From positions 1 through 38,725 of IMG/VR virus record IMGVR_UViG_3300025082_000023: a DNA stretch of 38,725 bases. One strand, written 5' to 3'. A program made the position numbers and the translations under genes. Positions 3,567 through 26,764 of this stretch are shown piece by piece (the stretch's first letter is position 1; the number at the start of each line of letters is the position of its first letter). The notes beneath the pieces were generated by a model. That model saw only the letters and a program-made list of their open reading frames with translations, ran no database searches and was not told the DNA's origin. Origin of the DNA: a virus.

Positions 3567-5044
3567 TTACGCCTTACAATCGCTCAGGATGCCGGACGCT
3601 TTTTCATTCTTAGAGCATAGACCTGCCTCGTAGAGCAGCATCTGTTTTGTCGCATCACCCGTTTTGGCGAGTTCAACAACGGACCAATCTCGCAGAACAT
3701 TCAGCGAGAAATAATCCATATCCAAGAAGAAAACGTGTTCCGTGGAATCCAGGTTACGATCTGGCACGATCTTGAATGAACCAAAGTCGCTGACATAGAT
3801 GTCGACCGCGTTTACTGCGGTGACACTACCGTTGCCTTTGATTTCATTCCGAATCGCGTACCCAGGGCCAGCGTTGGACGAAAGACCCGATATGGCCTGC
3901 TTGATAGTCGCAGGACAAAGGATCATGTCCGGGCTGCCGCCCGAGTTAAACGCATCCAAGATGACGTTTTTGATGCCAGCTTCCGTAATGGAAGCAGTGG
4001 CAGTCGCCTCTGTCATCGTGTTAGTACCAGTACCAGCCGAAGCTGCCGGGGAACCCGAGCCCGGGTTCATCGACACCCAGTTGGTTGCTAACCAGCTTGG
4101 GAGGCCAGCAGATACACGGGCGGTTGTAGAATCGCCCGCTGTTCGCGCTACGTTTTGAGAAAGCATATCTTCCCAATCGCGCTTCATCTGCTTACCGCGC
4201 TTTGCTAGTTGGTAAGCCTGGTGTTTGCCATGACCTGCGTAGTTGACCGAATCATCTGTACCGGACAATTTGTTACCGTAAAAGCTCTTTATCTTTTACT
4301 TCTACGTCTTTCGACGTAGTTCGGACTATCTCATCATCCCAGTGGGATGCCCTGCGCTCGTGTCGCTTCATAATCCCAAAGGGATCGTGTGCGTTAGTCT
4401 CTGAACCTTCGTCACATTGCTATGACGCTTGGCTGCGGATTCCCTTATCTTTAGATTTAGGGTTCCCGACAATTCACAGGGTTTTTCTTTTACGCATTAC
4501 TGCGTAACGGACCAAGGTACAATTTTAGTCTGAACCACATACCGTGAAATCTGGCAGTAATTCCCCAACCGGGTTGGTAACGCTCTTGCGGTCGCGGCCG
4601 GGCTGTCATCACCTTCTATTTGACGGTTGGCTGCACCAGAAGCAATGGTATCAGTCTGCCACTCAAAGTAAGTGTTGTCGGCCTTTTCGCGTGAACACGC
4701 ACTAAAAAAGGGCGTATCCAAAGGAGCGATATTATCTCTTGTTACCGTAAAAGTTCTTTATCTTTTACTTCTTACAGTTTTCCATCCTGCAAGGTCGGAC
4801 TATCTCATCATCCTTTCGGATGCTCCGCGCTCGTGGGCCTTTACTGTCCGTCCTGGACTCCCTGGCCTAGTCTCTGAACCTTTTTGTCATCCCTGACAAA
4901 CTTGGCTGCGGATTCCCCTTTCGGCGGGGTTCCCGACAATTCACGGAGTTTTATTGTCATCCATAATATTCAGATGACATCGGCTAACTGCTCGCGGATC
5001 GCTACTGACGAGTAAGTCAGTGAGGTATTGCTTGCAATTGCCAT
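3567..5044 (-). CDS. Major capsid protein, split by two group I introns
   Basis: Exons are 5044-4972 (73 nt), 4735-4527 (209 nt) and 4265-3567 (699 nt). Joined they give 981 nt in one frame, 326 residues plus stop, a normal length for SU10/DUF5309-type (HK97-fold) major capsid proteins. Exon 1 encodes MAIASNTSLTYSS through EQLADVI. The first junction makes the Tyr of DVIYNIAPLDTPFFSA. Exon 2 contains DNTYFEWQTDTIASGAANRQ. The second junction gives VVQT-SGTDDSVNYAG, and exon 3 continues with HQAYQLAKRGKQMKRDWED and VVELAKTGDATKQMLLYEAGL. Without splicing, translation stops at a TGA formed exactly at the first junction. The scaffold gene lies just upstream. Family assignment is by recognition; exon limits come from frame and intron pairing. 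Confidence 0.9.
4266..4526 (-). ncRNA. Group I intron 2 in the capsid gene (261 nt)
   Basis: The core contains AATTGTCGGGAACC (P-like), GGGAATCCGCAGCCAAG (Q-like), R element GGTTCAGAGACTA (4395-4407) and S element GATAGTCC (4323-4330); GACTA and TAGTC form P7. Hairpins fit P5, P6, P8 (CATCCC/GGGATG), P9 (CTACGTC/GACGTAG) and a 3' stem GTAAAAG/CTTTTAC. An extra hairpin TTACGCA/TGCGTAA fits P2. The 5' site follows CAGACT, whose end pairs with GGTCCG (one mismatch, U-G at the site), and the intron ends in G. There is no internal reading frame for an endonuclease. The P10 pairing is less clear than in intron 1. Confidence 0.88.
4736..4971 (-). ncRNA. Group I intron 1 in the capsid gene (236 nt)
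   Basis: The exon end GTCATCT pairs perfectly with internal guide GGATGAC, including the U-G pair at the splice site (P1). The preceding ATATTAT is the exact complement of the first seven bases of exon 2, ATAATAT (P10). The intron ends in G. The core has AATTGTCGGGAACC, GGGAATCCGCAGCCAAG, R element GGTTCAGAGACTA (4868-4880) and S element GATAGTCC (4797-4804). P5 (CCCC/GGGG), P6 (TTTGTCA/TGACAAA), P8 (CATCC/GGATG) and P9 (CTTGCAG/CTGTAAG) differ in sequence from intron 2 but keep pairing. It encodes no endonuclease. Confidence 0.93.
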
Positions 5045-5059: not shown

Positions 5060-6079
5060 TTAAGTGATTAAATCCTCAAGAAGTGCTGCCGCGTCATTAA
5101 CGTGGCCGCTCTCCTTCAGTCGGTTTCGCATCGCAGTTCGCTTTGCCTTCGTTTCCGATTTCGCGCTGGTTCCCTTTCCGCTCCGAATGACTTTCGGTTT
5201 GTTTTTGAGCTTCTTGGCCTTTGGGTTGGACCTTTGAAGTTCATCGTACAGCCGAGCCTTGTTCAGAATGATGAAAGAGCGATGGTCAATAAGACTTTCG
5301 ATTTCAGCATCTTGGAAACCCGCAGAAGATGCGTATTGGCGCAATTCACCAGCAAGCTCTTTCTGTTTGACGGGATCACCCCACTCTGGTAATTTTTCTA
5401 CCAGCTTGCCGTGTTCCTGCCTTACAGACTGCTGCCACTGTTGTTTGGCTGCTACGTCATTTCTCGCCACTGCCTGCTGTTGTTCACGTTGGACGTGGGC
5501 GACTTTTTCCTGGGCTTCTCTTAACTCCTCTTTCTTTTCCAGGAATGAGATGGGGTCCTCGGCTTTGAGGCGTTCCCAATCAACATTTGCATACTGGTCG
5601 AAGTTGGAGTTTTCGATTATGGATTGAAGGTATTGCGAATATTGCTGACGCTCTGACTGAATCTGCTGCATCTCTTGGTTGTACTGCGATTGCAGTGCCT
5701 CGATCTGCTTGCGTTCTTCAGCCAGATCCTGCGTTTTTTTAGTGAACGCGGATTGACGGGAATAGCCCTTCAGAAGTTCGTCAAGGTTGACCTCCTGCTC
5801 TTCACCGTCCACACGGACGGCATACAGGGGTTCCTCTTCGTCTTCTTCTGGCTCTTCGTCTTCGGACTCCTCTTCAGAATCAACTTCTTCCGGTTCGTCC
5901 TCTGAAACCGCCTCTGGAGATTCATCTGGATTTTCAGAGTCATCTACTTCGGTCGGGGGTGCTTCCTCGGCTTTTGGTTGCTCTTCACTCGAGTCCAATA
6001 AACCAAGTATTGCGTTTTGGGCCTCTAAGATAGACCCTTCGTCTGTGTTAACTGCCGGTGCTGTGGGCGTGTCGGCCAT
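5060..6079 (-). CDS. Capsid scaffolding protein
   Basis: The 339-residue protein has a very acidic region (about residues 40-85, many Glu/Asp/Ser), then VNLDELLKGYSRQSAFTKKTQ and long Gln/Glu-rich coiled-coil helices, and a basic C-terminus with KAKKLKNKPKVIRSGKG and ETKAKRTAMRNRLK. A helical acidic protein with a basic tail directly upstream of the capsid gene is the classical scaffold arrangement; the tail would bind capsid subunits during head assembly. The start at MADTPTAP is chosen because GGAG lies 7 nt upstream and the earlier in-frame ATG lies within a terminator hairpin. Confidence 0.8.
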   Translation of the reverse strand: MADTPTAPAVNTDEGSILEAQNAILGLLDSSEEQPKAEEAPPTEVDDSENPDESPEAVSEDEPEEVDSEEESEDEEPEEDEEEPLYAVRVDGEEQEVNLDELLKGYSRQSAFTKKTQDLAEERKQIEALQSQYNQEMQQIQSERQQYSQYLQSIIENSNFDQYANVDWERLKAEDPISFLEKKEELREAQEKVAHVQREQQQAVARNDVAAKQQWQQSVRQEHGKLVEKLPEWGDPVKQKELAGELRQYASSAGFQDAEIESLIDHRSFIILNKARLYDELQRSNPKAKKLKNKPKVIRSGKGTSAKSETKAKRTAMRNRLKESGHVNDAAALLEDLIT

Positions 6080-12731: not shown

Positions 12732-12732
12732 C
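12672..12732. repeat. Five ACATCCAC iterons
   Basis: Copies start at 12672, 12686, 12697, 12711 and 12725, with spacings of 14, 11, 14 and 14. They abut the end of the endonuclease VII-like gene and precede TerS on the late strand. They could be a TerS binding (pac) site or a regulator or replication site; the sequence alone does not decide. Confidence 0.75.
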
Positions 12733-13217
12733 TAGCCTTTACTAGCTCTACTGTGTTCTTCTATTGGGTTGTTGAAGTAACCGCGACCTCGTAAAGCTCT
12801 CAGCTCCTCCAAGGTGTAACCGTCATTCGCTTTGTAATCCCGCAAGCGGTCCAGTGCTTGTGGCTTGTCCTTTATGAAACCTTCGAGCAGGTTGCAGAAG
12901 CGGCACAGTAACCCACGGACCTTACCTGTTTCATGGTTGTGATCCACATGGAGGACCGCAGTCAGGGTAGACTGGTGATCCCCACATATAACACAACATC
13001 CACACTGCGCCTCATACATCTCATTGTAGTCTTCTGGTGTGATTCCGTAGTCCCGCTGTAACTGGGTCCTTCGGACGCGCGGCGCATGGCATTCCCTACA
13101 CCATTTTTGCAACCCATCTCGTTGGGTTCGGTTGCGATTAAAATCCGAGAGCGGTTTTTCCTGCTTACATCTCCCACAGGTCTTTCCCTGTGAGACAAGC
13201 GCCAGGTTTACCGTCAC
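12732..13217 (-). CDS. Recombination endonuclease VII-like HNH nuclease
   Basis: The 161-residue protein has an N-terminal zinc-ribbon-like CGRCKQEKPLSDF (Cys14, Cys17) with KWCREC (Cys40, Cys43). The nuclease core has CCVICGD (residues 74-80), HVDHNHETGKVRGLLC (Asp92-His95) and CRFCN. This matches the His-Me finger family of T4 endonuclease VII. It probably resolves branched DNA before packaging, fitting its place just before the terminase genes; a free-standing homing nuclease is an alternative. Its start overlaps the end of the preceding gene. Confidence 0.85.
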   Translation of the reverse strand: MTVNLALVSQGKTCGRCKQEKPLSDFNRNRTQRDGLQKWCRECHAPRVRRTQLQRDYGITPEDYNEMYEAQCGCCVICGDHQSTLTAVLHVDHNHETGKVRGLLCRFCNLLEGFIKDKPQALDRLRDYKANDGYTLEELRALRGRGYFNNPIEEHSRASKG

Positions 13218-23695: not shown

Positions 23696-23887
23696 ATGGC
23701 TAAAGAGAACAAGCGTCTACGGACGTTGATGACCAAGTATGGTTTAACAATCAAGGAAGTTGCTGAACTGCTCTATGTCTCACCTGTGACGGTTCAGCAT
23801 TGGAGAGCATCTGAGGGTGCGGTAGGTTATCGCAATATGCCCAGAGGGTACTTAGAACTGCTTAAAATAAAACTAGGAGAAAAGTGA
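23696..23887 (+). CDS. Small HTH regulator upstream of integrase
   Basis: The 63-residue protein has LMTKYGLTIKEVAELLYVSP and VTVQHWRASEGAVGYRNMPR, a helix-turn-helix. The start at 23696 is supported by GGAG 8 nt upstream; ATG at 23678 is an alternative. Its TGA overlaps the integrase ATG (TGATG), so the two are coupled. It could be a directionality factor or a controller of integrase. Confidence 0.7.
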   Translation: MAKENKRLRTLMTKYGLTIKEVAELLYVSPVTVQHWRASEGAVGYRNMPRGYLELLKIKLGEK

Positions 23888-24936
23888 TGGCATATTTACA
23901 AAAACATTCCAAAAACAAGCAAGCACTTGTGCTGGTTTACAAGGATGCGAACGACAAACGCCGGAAGAAGTATCTGGGCCAGATCCCAAAACGGCAGGCC
24001 AACCTTCTACTGGAGCAAGCCTGCAGCGAGGAACGATCCAGAAAGCTGGGACTCCGTGTGGAGTCGCCTTTGTTTCAGAGTGCAATTCGTGGGCCACTGT
24101 TTAAAGAATACGCCTCGGAATACCTTACCGAATACCGGCATGATTTCCCAAAAACCTACGGCAAGGTAAAGGCCAGTATGGTGCATCTGGTAGGTGGGTT
24201 TGGGGATTTAAGGTTGGATGCGGGAGAGCAGAAGTGGGCCGATGCCTGGAAGAAGTACAAAGTGCGGCGGCTTGCTGAGATCATGCCCTCTACCCTGCAG
24301 GGGGAGTGGATGACACTACGCAAGTCTTTGAAGTCGGCGGTTCCCTCGAAGATCCCCAATTCCCCTCTCGGGCATTTAGAGTTTGGGATGAGGGTGCAGC
24401 AGAACAAAATCCACTGCTTTCGTAAACCGGAACTGATCGCACTCTACGGTGCGTCCGATCCGCTCTTTGCCGCGACCTGGCAGTTTGTCGCCAATACCGG
24501 CCTCCGTCGGGGTGAGATTGTGATGCAGCGCAAGGTGTATGTGGGGCGGGAGGAAGTTCAGATTGTGAACGACCCGGAGGATAATCTTGAAACCAAGACA
24601 GGTAAGAGTCGGATCGTGCCGCTGTCGGATGCGGCGCAGGATGCCCGAGAGCGGGTTTTATTCTACAACCCGGATGGGGCTGACTTTTTCCCGCAGATGA
24701 GGGACAAGTCTGATTGGTCCAAAAAGTTTGCAGAAGTGCGGGGATTGGCAGGGGTTGATCGTGGGACCCTGCACGGGCTCAGGCACACCTTCATCTCGTA
24801 CCTGGTGAATGACTTGCGGGAGCCCCTGCCGGTGGTGCAGGAGCTGGCCGGTCATGCCAAGGTGGAAACCACCATGCGCTACATCCACGTTTTACCGGAC
24901 CACCACAAAAGGGCGGTCCAAAACCTAAACTTGTGA
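23887..24936 (+). CDS. int: Tyrosine recombinase integrase
   Basis: The 349-residue enzyme has all catalytic residues: Arg207 in NTGLRRGEI, Lys240 in KTGKSRIVPL, HGLRHTF (His296, Arg299), GHAK (His323) and Tyr332 in TTMRYIH. The N-terminus (about 1-60) is the arm-binding part, followed by the core-binding helices. It integrates the phage circle at the host tRNA-Gly gene; attP and arm-type repeats lie directly downstream. The ATG at 23887 overlaps the previous stop and has AGGAG upstream. Confidence 0.95.
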   Translation: MAYLQKHSKNKQALVLVYKDANDKRRKKYLGQIPKRQANLLLEQACSEERSRKLGLRVESPLFQSAIRGPLFKEYASEYLTEYRHDFPKTYGKVKASMVHLVGGFGDLRLDAGEQKWADAWKKYKVRRLAEIMPSTLQGEWMTLRKSLKSAVPSKIPNSPLGHLEFGMRVQQNKIHCFRKPELIALYGASDPLFAATWQFVANTGLRRGEIVMQRKVYVGREEVQIVNDPEDNLETKTGKSRIVPLSDAAQDARERVLFYNPDGADFFPQMRDKSDWSKKFAEVRGLAGVDRGTLHGLRHTFISYLVNDLREPLPVVQELAGHAKVETTMRYIHVLPDHHKRAVQNLNL

Positions 24937-25156: not shown

Positions 25157-25378
25157 TCAGAGAGTCTCAATTTCGCGAATGTCACGAATCATAGCACGAG
25201 GGATGTGCCAAAGATTTCCCCAATATTGAGCCTTGCCAGGAATGTGGGTCATCGCCAGGGTGATCCACATCCTTGTCTTTTGAACAAGCAGCCCGTAGGT
25301 GACGACTGGGGTTTCATCCGGGGTTAGATCATCCGTCCAGCTCCCATCCATGTATGCGTCAATCCAGGACACAGCCAC
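25157..25378 (-). CDS. Conserved small phage protein (73 aa)
   Basis: The GTG at 25378 overlaps the TAG of the upstream gene, giving VAVSWIDAYMDGSWTDDLTP, VVTYGLLVQKTRMWITLAMT, and YWGNLWHIPRAMIRDIREIE. The pattern of a strand-rich body with a V-x-L-A segment and ending HIPRAMI recurs in small phage proteins of unknown function. The long N-terminal frame extension up to 25576 overlaps the neighbour and is ignored. It ends two bases from the right arm site. Confidence 0.65.
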   Translation of the reverse strand: MAVSWIDAYMDGSWTDDLTPDETPVVTYGLLVQKTRMWITLAMTHIPGKAQYWGNLWHIPRAMIRDIREIETL

Positions 25379-25548: not shown

Positions 25549-25836
25549 TTGGGGGTCTCCTAATGAAATCGGGCAAAACGTTGTTCGCTCCTGGGGGTTA
25601 GATTCATACCGATCCGGTAAGAAAGTATTGAACATAGCTAAACGGGGTTAAATCCCCTGGGCCTATAAAACAAGGTGTTTTTGGATGTGAAAAAACAAAC
25701 CTTCACCTTCGCCATTTTACCGTTAAACACTGTAAAAGAGGGGGTTTTCATGTGTTTCGTAGACCTGTATGGAGCCCTGTCGCGCGTACTTTTGGGTTGG
25801 CAGGGTTATTCCCCTGCGTATGCACGACAGAGCGTC
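25549..25836. other. Noncoding stretch with a composite hairpin
   Basis: I see no convincing gene in this 288-base interval. Its notable feature is the two-tier hairpin at 25777-25830, next to the tRNA-like element. The remainder is mixed sequence with short A- and T-runs. Confidence 0.55.
25777..25830 (-). repeat. Two-tier hairpin directly 3' of the tRNA-like element
   Basis: On the - strand CTGTCGTGCATAC (25830-25818) pairs with GTACGCGCGACAG (25789-25777) at 12 of 13 positions, counting one U-G. Inside, GCAGGG and CCCTGC (25817-25812 and 25805-25800) pair around GAATAA. The two stems stack at 25817/25818, leaving a 10-nt 3' bulge. There is no U-tract, so it is not a classical terminator. 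Confidence 0.7.
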
Positions 25837-25916
25837 TGGTGGAGGTGGGGGGATTCAAACCCCCGTCCCGGCTACTCCGCTTCGGGCTTATCGCCGGTCG
25901 AATTCGTTTCACCCCC
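25837..25916 (-). ncRNA. tRNA/tmRNA-like element (80 nt)
   Basis: On the - strand GGGGGTG at the 5' end pairs with CACCTCC near the 3' end, 7 bp with a G3-U70 pair (the alanine identity mark), then A and an encoded CCA. A T-arm GGGGG-TTTGAAT-CCCCC follows GAC, as in tmRNA ends, but has T where C56 is usual. Near the 5' end AATTCGAC recalls the tmRNA D-loop region. CCGGC/GCCGG encloses a 20-nt loop in place of the anticodon arm or tmRNA body. The 5' half overlaps the end of the 89-residue gene. It may be a reduced tmRNA-like RNA, or a tRNA-derived relic of an old attachment site. Confidence 0.5.
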
Positions 25917-26141
25917 AATGACTTTATAGTGGACAGATCCATCTTCCTGGTGTTCTACCCGGTAGTGAACCGGCACCATTTTGTAGAGGGTGAATTCATC
26001 CCCGTGCGCCGGGGGGATCTCAGTCGTAATTGCGTCGAACACTTTGTCCATCGCGGCGAAGGGGCTGAAGCCTTTACCGAGCGAATTCTCAAAAAATTTA
26101 TCCATCGCCCGAACCTGGGTATTCCTCATAGCTAACACCAT
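25872..26141 (-). CDS. Hypothetical protein (89 aa)
   Basis: MVLAMRNTQVRAMDKFFENS, LGKGFSPFAAMDKVFDAITT, then EFTLYKMVPVHYRVEHQEDG and a polar tail ending GDKPEAE. A good ribosome site (AAGGAG, 7 nt) supports the start. The last 15 or so codons are also the 5' half of the tRNA-like element. Function unknown; it follows the lysis genes on the late transcript. Confidence 0.65.
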   Translation of the reverse strand: MVLAMRNTQVRAMDKFFENSLGKGFSPFAAMDKVFDAITTEIPPAHGDEFTLYKMVPVHYRVEHQEDGSVHYKVIGGETNSTGDKPEAE

Positions 26142-26225: not shown

Positions 26226-26426
26226 CTAATATTCTTCCTCATCCCGATCTGGTACGAGTCCTCTGTCGCCTGCAGTTGCAGCGGGAGGTCGTACCTCGAC
26301 ACGGCGAAGAGGGTTGCCATTGCGACCCCAGCAACGGCGATCTTGCCGCTCTGACCGCGTGAATTTACGCTTCGATCTCTTCCGTAAAGCTACCGATTTA
26401 ATTTTGTCGGCCCTGGGATTAACCAC
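26226..26426 (-). CDS. Possible small Arg-rich protein (66 aa)
   Basis: From GTG at 26426 the frame gives MVNPRADKIKSVALRKRSKR, KFTRSERQDRRCWGRNGNPL, then VRPPAATAGDRGLVPDRDEE. It is strongly basic with an acidic end. It overlaps the lipoprotein gene by 37 nt. Without a recognised family or strong ribosome site it remains doubtful. Confidence 0.4.
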   Translation of the reverse strand: MVNPRADKIKSVALRKRSKRKFTRSERQDRRCWGRNGNPLRRVEVRPPAATAGDRGLVPDRDEEEY

Positions 26427-26764
26427 CCGGCGATTACTGGAACCACGACAAACGCGAGGATCAATCCGATCCCGCCAAGCTCTACTGCTTTTTCAGCAAC
26501 CGTCCAAATCGTATCTGGCGCACATTCCATGTCAATCCCCCGCATCCTCGTATCCATCATCGTTTCCGTCACCACATCGGTCACAAAAGCACTCGTCATG
26601 GCCCCCGCTATCGGTGCAAGTGCACCCCCCGATAAGACAGTACCCGCAGTCGCACCTATCGCCGCCCCTGTTGCTACTACCGTTGATTTTTTTAGTGTCG
26701 TGCATCCCGCTAACCCAAGTACAGTAATAAGAGTAAGATGTCTGCTATACCAAGGAGTACGCAT
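26390..26764 (-). CDS. Small lipoprotein with glycine-rich hydrophobic stretch
   Basis: The 124-residue product has a lipoprotein signal peptide ending LTLITVLGLAGC (lipobox LAGC, Cys at about 21). Next are an Ala/Gly-rich segment VVATGAAIGATAGTVLSGGA, and a second membrane span GGIGLILAFVVVPVIAGWLI. It could be an o-spanin-like or other envelope protein, given its place beside the holin candidate, but it is longer and more hydrophobic than typical o-spanins. No strong ribosome site is seen. Confidence 0.65.
   Translation of the reverse strand: MRTPWYSRHLTLITVLGLAGCTTLKKSTVVATGAAIGATAGTVLSGGALAPIAGAMTSAFVTDVVTETMMDTRMRGIDMECAPDTIWTVAEKAVELGGIGLILAFVVVPVIAGWLIPGPTKLNR

Follow-up and report, generated by a model that had tools for sequence, protein, structure and literature searches.

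At the downstream end of a minus-strand run of structural genes, the viral DNA analysed here (a stretch of 38,725 nucleotides, referred to throughout as the window) carries an 80-nt element that resembles the two ends of a transfer-messenger RNA (tmRNA) joined by a short hairpin. We asked what this element is, how widely it occurs and what it might do for its phage, which is marine and has a terminase resembling those of Vibrio and Pelagibacter phages. A sequence-only reading had described a 7-bp acceptor stem with a G3-U70 pair, a discriminator A and CCA, and had seen only a CCGGC/GCCGG stem in place of an anticodon arm or tag-coding body; both descriptions were borne out by the minus-strand sequence from 25916 to 25837 (GGGGGTGAAACGAATTCGACCGGCGATAAGCCCGAAGCGGAGTAGCCGGGACGGGGGTTTGAATCCCCCCACCTCCACCA). 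The parts of the RNA gene, which encodes the tRNA-like domain (TLD) of a tmRNA, and the protein genes that bear on its interpretation are as follows.

25837..25916, minus strand: TLD-only tmRNA-like RNA gene of 80 nt, running from its 5' end at 25916 to 25837, the last letter of the encoded CCA
25910..25916, minus strand: acceptor stem 5' strand GGGGGTG, holding G3 of G3-U70 (from the sequence; pairs in 88/88 distinct relatives listed)
25897..25909, minus strand: D-loop AAACGAATTCGAC, with G18-A19 and the conserved UUCGAC (from the sequence; A19 accompanies U56)
25868..25897, minus strand: short P2-like stem CCGGC/GCCGG with a 20-nt loop GATAAGCCCGAAGCGGAGTA, replacing the tag-coding body (from the sequence; helix 2 covaries)
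25848..25864, minus strand: T-arm GGGGG-TTTGAAT-CCCCC with U56 (from the sequence; helix 3 covaries)
25837..25847, minus strand: acceptor stem 3' strand CACCTCC (U70), discriminator A73 and CCA (from the sequence)
25872..26141, minus strand: gene for an 89-aa protein (Shine-Dalgarno AAGGAGT, ATG start; last 14 codons and stop inside the RNA gene)
26390..26764, minus strand: gene that marks the conserved locus from upstream (its homologues in related phages, 31-95% identical, lie a short way before the TLD gene)
23884..24936, plus strand: tyrosine integrase gene (PF00589, 7.8e-16, and PHROG integrase matches; 900 bp from the element)

All seven acceptor positions are paired (GGGGGUG/CACCUCC, G3-U70 included) and are followed by A73 and the encoded CCA. 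Between the acceptor strands lie a D-loop ending in UUCGAC, the CCGGC/GCCGG stem, a GGAC junction and a five-pair T-arm with the T-loop UUUGAAU, in that order; both halves of the tmRNA tRNA-like domain are therefore encoded, and in the normal order. The 20-nt loop stands where a tmRNA body of roughly 300 nt would be, and inspection of the element's sequence revealed no resume codon, tag reading frame, pseudoknot domain or anticodon arm. By a simple pattern, the inner loop of the short stem has the form UAA-nn-CC...GG in 33 of the 88 listed members of the class described below, the window's element included.

An Infernal run with Rfam model RF00023, proposed in the sequence-only reading, matched exactly 25837-25916 (60.5 bits, E 2.2e-21, gathering threshold 47) and extended from model position 1 to 374, so that both model ends were covered. 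The ARAGORN run proposed alongside it called no tRNA or tmRNA in the window, and hence nothing at the element. A covariance model (R2), trained on 12 TLD-only RNAs of other phages with the window and the phages sharing its locus left out, gave the element 74.7 bits (E 4.4e-16) as its sole match in the window; one of the twelve training sequences came from L204, a phage kin to the window's in its structural genes, with its RNA gene elsewhere. The folding energy of the element by itself was unremarkable (z -1.3). A chance origin was ruled out by homology and covariation, and the pattern with which we found relatives gave 0 matches in 22 Mb of shuffled sequence. As judged from its sequence, the element is a complete tmRNA tRNA-like domain, which confirms the first observation made at this locus.

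The locus itself has relatives. The earlier proposal that part of the element doubles as protein-coding sequence was upheld, as the 89-aa gene (26141-25872) ends inside it, contributing its last 14 residues. Two homologues of the 89-aa protein (L100, L101) occur without the RNA, and their similarity covers residues 3-75, stopping where the RNA begins. Many marine contigs (the L103 family, L129, L171 and others) have a homologue of the gene at 26764-26390 ahead of a TLD-only gene. In L129, which is 95% identical to the window at this gene, the TLD gene overlaps the end of the 89-aa gene homologue in the same frame as in the window, and the two RNAs show five base-pair differences, all compensated (an acceptor U-A to C-G, three in P2 and one in the T-stem). 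Across seventeen sequences of this lineage, 25 cells were doubly changed, versus 7.3 in shuffled and 1-7 in slid controls; the alignments were made to fit the model, and this biases them towards the structure, whereas neither the controls with slid partners nor the direct comparison with L129 carries that bias. A search near the element for a sigma-70-like promoter or intrinsic terminator found none.

Several structural genes of L204 are about 80% identical to those of the window, and its TLD-only gene (774-850, acceptor GGGCCUG/CAGGUCC) lies elsewhere, adjoining a homologue of the window's gene at 4268-3567. The position in L204 suggests that TLD-only RNA genes move. Beside gene 4268-3567 the window itself carries two minus-strand group I introns (4302-4536 and 4771-5023; Rfam 105 and 63.6 bits), which probably interrupt the capsid gene. 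Another minus-strand stretch, at 12732-13217, resembles an HNH-type homing endonuclease with zinc-binding CxxC motifs, as read from the sequence.

We scanned 2.9 million viral contigs with a degenerate pattern (UUCGAC, a short gap, GGAC plus T-arm, and ACCA). Its strict version matched 71 contigs, and a version with the acceptor 3' strand unconstrained matched at least 119 stretches. A perfect, correctly placed 7-bp acceptor was present in 119 of the 125 matches listed, including the window, and two of the six exceptions end at a contig edge. The TLD-only architecture was represented by at least 88 distinct sequences from at least 119 contigs, a count that misses forms such as the Streptomyces phage genes without a full encoded CCA; the first 76 distinct sequences fell into 47 clusters at 88% identity. 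Close copies of the window's element were absent from an exact-pattern search of viral contigs, and RF00023 gave no match over 50 records picked by terminase homology, mostly short fragments.

G1-C72, G2-C71 and G3-U70 were present in 88/88 distinct sequences listed, although the pattern did not demand G3-U70, and in the same set acceptor pairs 5 and 6 varied among GC, AU, CG and UA. Under the same model alignment, position 3 of tRNA-like false matches was occupied by GC, AU, CG and other pairs. Because the pattern demanded UUCGAC, GGAC, A73 and, mostly, CCA, their presence says nothing independent about conservation. In an alignment of 16 representatives, 96.7% of pair cells were paired and 81 were doubly changed, versus 23.5 when shuffled and 8-13 when the partner was slid. 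In the covariance search of related phages that had been proposed, the acceptor pairing proved to be conserved through compensatory changes, both in a syntenic orthologue and across 88 distinct sequences.

Uncultured contigs make up most of the relatives. Cultured carriers comprise the Streptomyces phages pSt2308, LuckySocke, GiJojo, BRock, Alone3 and Riptide and the Stenotrophomonas phage Jojan60, and GenBank has no RNA annotated at the TLD-only site in any of them. They scored 38-68 bits with the covariance model (GiJojo is known from a BLAST match only), and their acceptor pairs 4-6 are unlike the marine ones, with G3-U70 kept. L174 carries two different TLD-only genes (1562-1638 and 5108-5183), the second of which, as in L173, L175 and L176, has one A more on the 3' side of the T-stem. 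In L106, L107, L131, L144 and L172 a hairpin, CCCACCCUUCGGGGGUG, lies just upstream of the element and could pair with the acceptor 5' strand; it is perhaps a terminator or processing signal.

One feature of the element had been taken as a possible sign of decay, namely T instead of C at position 56 of the T-loop. In tRNA-like domains, position 56 pairs with D-loop position 19. The element lacks the G19-C56 elbow pair and has A19-U56 instead. A GA in place of the GG doublet was found in 11/11 distinct U56 sequences listed (ten from one phage cluster and the window's own, hence few independent events), whereas 74 of the 76 C56 sequences listed have GG. Searching 84,980 species with the U56 pattern recovered 15 Helicobacter(aceae) tmRNAs, all with GA, and one SAR324 fragment. 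The best interpretation of U56 is that it forms half of a compensated A19-U56 pair, as in Helicobacter tmRNAs, and the argument from T56 to decay does not hold, given that A19 accompanies U56 both in a related phage family and in those 15 tmRNAs. The SAR324 sequence (L095, 2147-2178) is an isolated tmRNA 3' fragment with U56, probably the remnant of an integrated element. It hinted at SAR324 as the host, a candidate that we rejected: that genome's own tmRNA is canonical, with C56, and 52 genomes of the phylum gave no TLD-only match in a scan run without a positive control.

Could the element nevertheless be a non-functional remnant, left by internal deletion from a full host ssrA that a phage had captured? 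A TLD must descend from tmRNA, U56 looks unusual and the 5' half of the element doubles as coding sequence, but we give this origin almost no credence: all helices are intact and covary within the lineage, U56 comes with A19, the locus is kept across phages in which the adjoining protein is merely 31-95% identical, and G3-U70 is unchanged throughout the sequences listed. The neighbouring integrase raises another reading, in which the element is an attP, a copy of the end of a host tmRNA gene used by that enzyme. The integrase gene ends 900 bp away, tmRNA 3' ends are common integration sites and no other tRNA- or tmRNA-like sequence was found in the window. We nonetheless regard this as very unlikely. 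In the mycobacteriophages Adephagia and LilSpotty, real tmRNA attP sites are limited to some 26-29 nt from the 3' end, beside the integrase, and score 15 bits or nothing, whereas the element retains its two ends, its D-loop and its closed stem with compensatory changes, and its 3' 32 nt occur in no genome of the 84,980-species collection. PF00589 was detected in only 3/50 carrier records, each time more than 10 kb from the element; with an integrase absent from the other 47 and distant in these three, the class is not an integration site. Integrase co-occurrence, the real tmRNA attP controls and the 3'-end search of genomes led us to reject attP for the class, and covariation, synteny, the integrase test and the attP controls mark the window's element as a phage-genome gene beyond a mere att copy. 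It may still have a second role as attP in the window phage alone. Between the integrase and TLD genes there are direct repeats like CGGGGTTAGATC in three copies (25319-25330, 25593-25604 and 25643-25654), which are possible integrase arm sites. Some carriers hold the gene among tRNA genes (within 1.5 kb at 23 of the 119 loci listed; Streptomyces phages), as might be expected of some other translation-related RNA, such as a titrator of alanyl-tRNA synthetase (AlaRS) or EF-Tu, or a structural or primer RNA unrelated to trans-translation. Such a use is highly improbable, as the tmRNA-specific UUCGAC D-loop, the GGAC junction and the GG/GA doublet are kept, pointing to SmpB and tmRNA and not to a generic tRNA function; for UUCGAC and GGAC this conservation is independent only in the BLAST-found isolates, because the pattern demanded both.

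The nearest published precedent is the TLD-only tmRNA of mycobacteriophage DS6A (PMC4131195 Table 2; PMC11915505). Going by its published description, the DS6A RNA is like the window's in being phage-encoded and in having little beyond the tmRNA tRNA-like domain and no tag. DS6A infects mycobacteria, whereas the window RNA belongs to a marine phage, ends a structural-gene run, overlaps a protein gene and has A19-U56. The integration site of DS6A is a tRNA-Lys gene (PMC10865867), and its TLD therefore does not serve as attP in that phage either. Bacterial tmRNA (SsrA; RF00023) shares with the element the acceptor with G3-U70, the D-loop, the base of a P2-like stem, the GGAC junction, the T-arm and CCA; the element differs in having no mRNA-like domain, resume codon, tag or pseudoknots, and in its length of 80 nt against a 374-position model. 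tmRNA acceptor ends are also found in the genomes of Synechococcus phage S-CAM1, Bordetella phage PHB04 and Brevundimonas phage Bajun. The annotated tmRNA gene of Bajun is 433 bp long, and the tmRNAs of S-CAM1 and PHB04 are permuted, with the 3' part before the 5' part, whereas TLD-only genes have the normal order and a closed short stem. We set S-CAM1 and PHB04 aside as permuted and rejected a permuted two-piece tmRNA for the window, where the order is normal. The CDS-less tmRNAs of Mallomonadaceae plastids, of ~65 bp (PMC11915505), likewise have no tag coding sequence but are organellar and not of phage origin.

What might a tRNA-like domain do by itself? In tmRNA, G3-U70 is a fully conserved pair and a strong identity signal for AlaRS, through which the enzyme charges the RNA; EF-Tu is the carrier of tmRNA, and its TLD and SmpB together imitate an entire tRNA (PMC3985003). 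PMC4131195 reports strong inhibition of tmRNA by an RNA of the DS6A type, possibly through titration of SmpB, and PMC11915505 repeats this. The sequence-only reading had offered a reduced tmRNA or an alanylated RNA mimic, and this is the best-supported interpretation from comparison of sequences, with the acceptor pairing kept in the 88 distinct sequences listed and in the syntenic orthologue. Its further suggestion that the RNA is made late in infection fits the element's place at the downstream end of the minus-strand structural genes. Our analysis favours the view that the element is an alanine-accepting decoy, which probably competes for SmpB and EF-Tu and so damps trans-translation. The element is probably part of the minus-strand structural-gene transcript; the host's RNase P and 3' processing would free from it an 80-nt RNA with CCA at its end. 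Host AlaRS would then charge this RNA via G3-U70, as the 88/88 conservation among listed sequences suggests, and the host's SmpB and EF-Tu would bind it in the same manner as tmRNA. A search for an SmpB gene in 50 other carrier records gave 0/50, so host SmpB would serve. Charged TLD-SmpB would compete for stalled ribosomes or deplete SmpB and, because the RNA has no tag template, could do so without a degradation tag being added. Competition with host tmRNA would likely leave trans-translation damped during infection.

Plain titration needs no G3-U70, yet G3-U70 is invariant, an invariance that suggests a natural role for the charged form and makes tag-less rescue a serious rival to the decoy. 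Here alanylated TLD with SmpB would enter a stalled ribosome and take the nascent chain, after which peptidyl-TLD would drop off and be hydrolysed; such rescue would be friendly to the phage, with ribosomes freed and phage proteins not tagged for destruction. Every ribosome-entry part of the TLD is kept and the tag template alone is missing, and strict G3-U70 (88/88 listed) with complete acceptor and T-arm geometry implies a role for the charged form beyond SmpB titration. It remains the unlikely option in our judgement, as we know of no release activity for a TLD alone. The effect that PMC4131195 reports for such a molecule is inhibition of tmRNA.

We tentatively extend the decoy interpretation to the whole class. 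TLD-only RNAs could well be a widespread, overlooked class of phage genes, missed by ARAGORN, that disarm or redirect host ribosome rescue by acting in alanine-charged form and not via passive SmpB titration, as a general anti-trans-translation strategy across many hosts. The invariant G3-U70 leads to a sharp prediction, that the charged form is the active form, and, with carriers already cultured in Streptomyces lividans and Stenotrophomonas, knock-out tests are within reach. One named phage example, DS6A, has become a class with over a hundred covarying members, and a class of this size suggests that phages commonly need to block or bend trans-translation.
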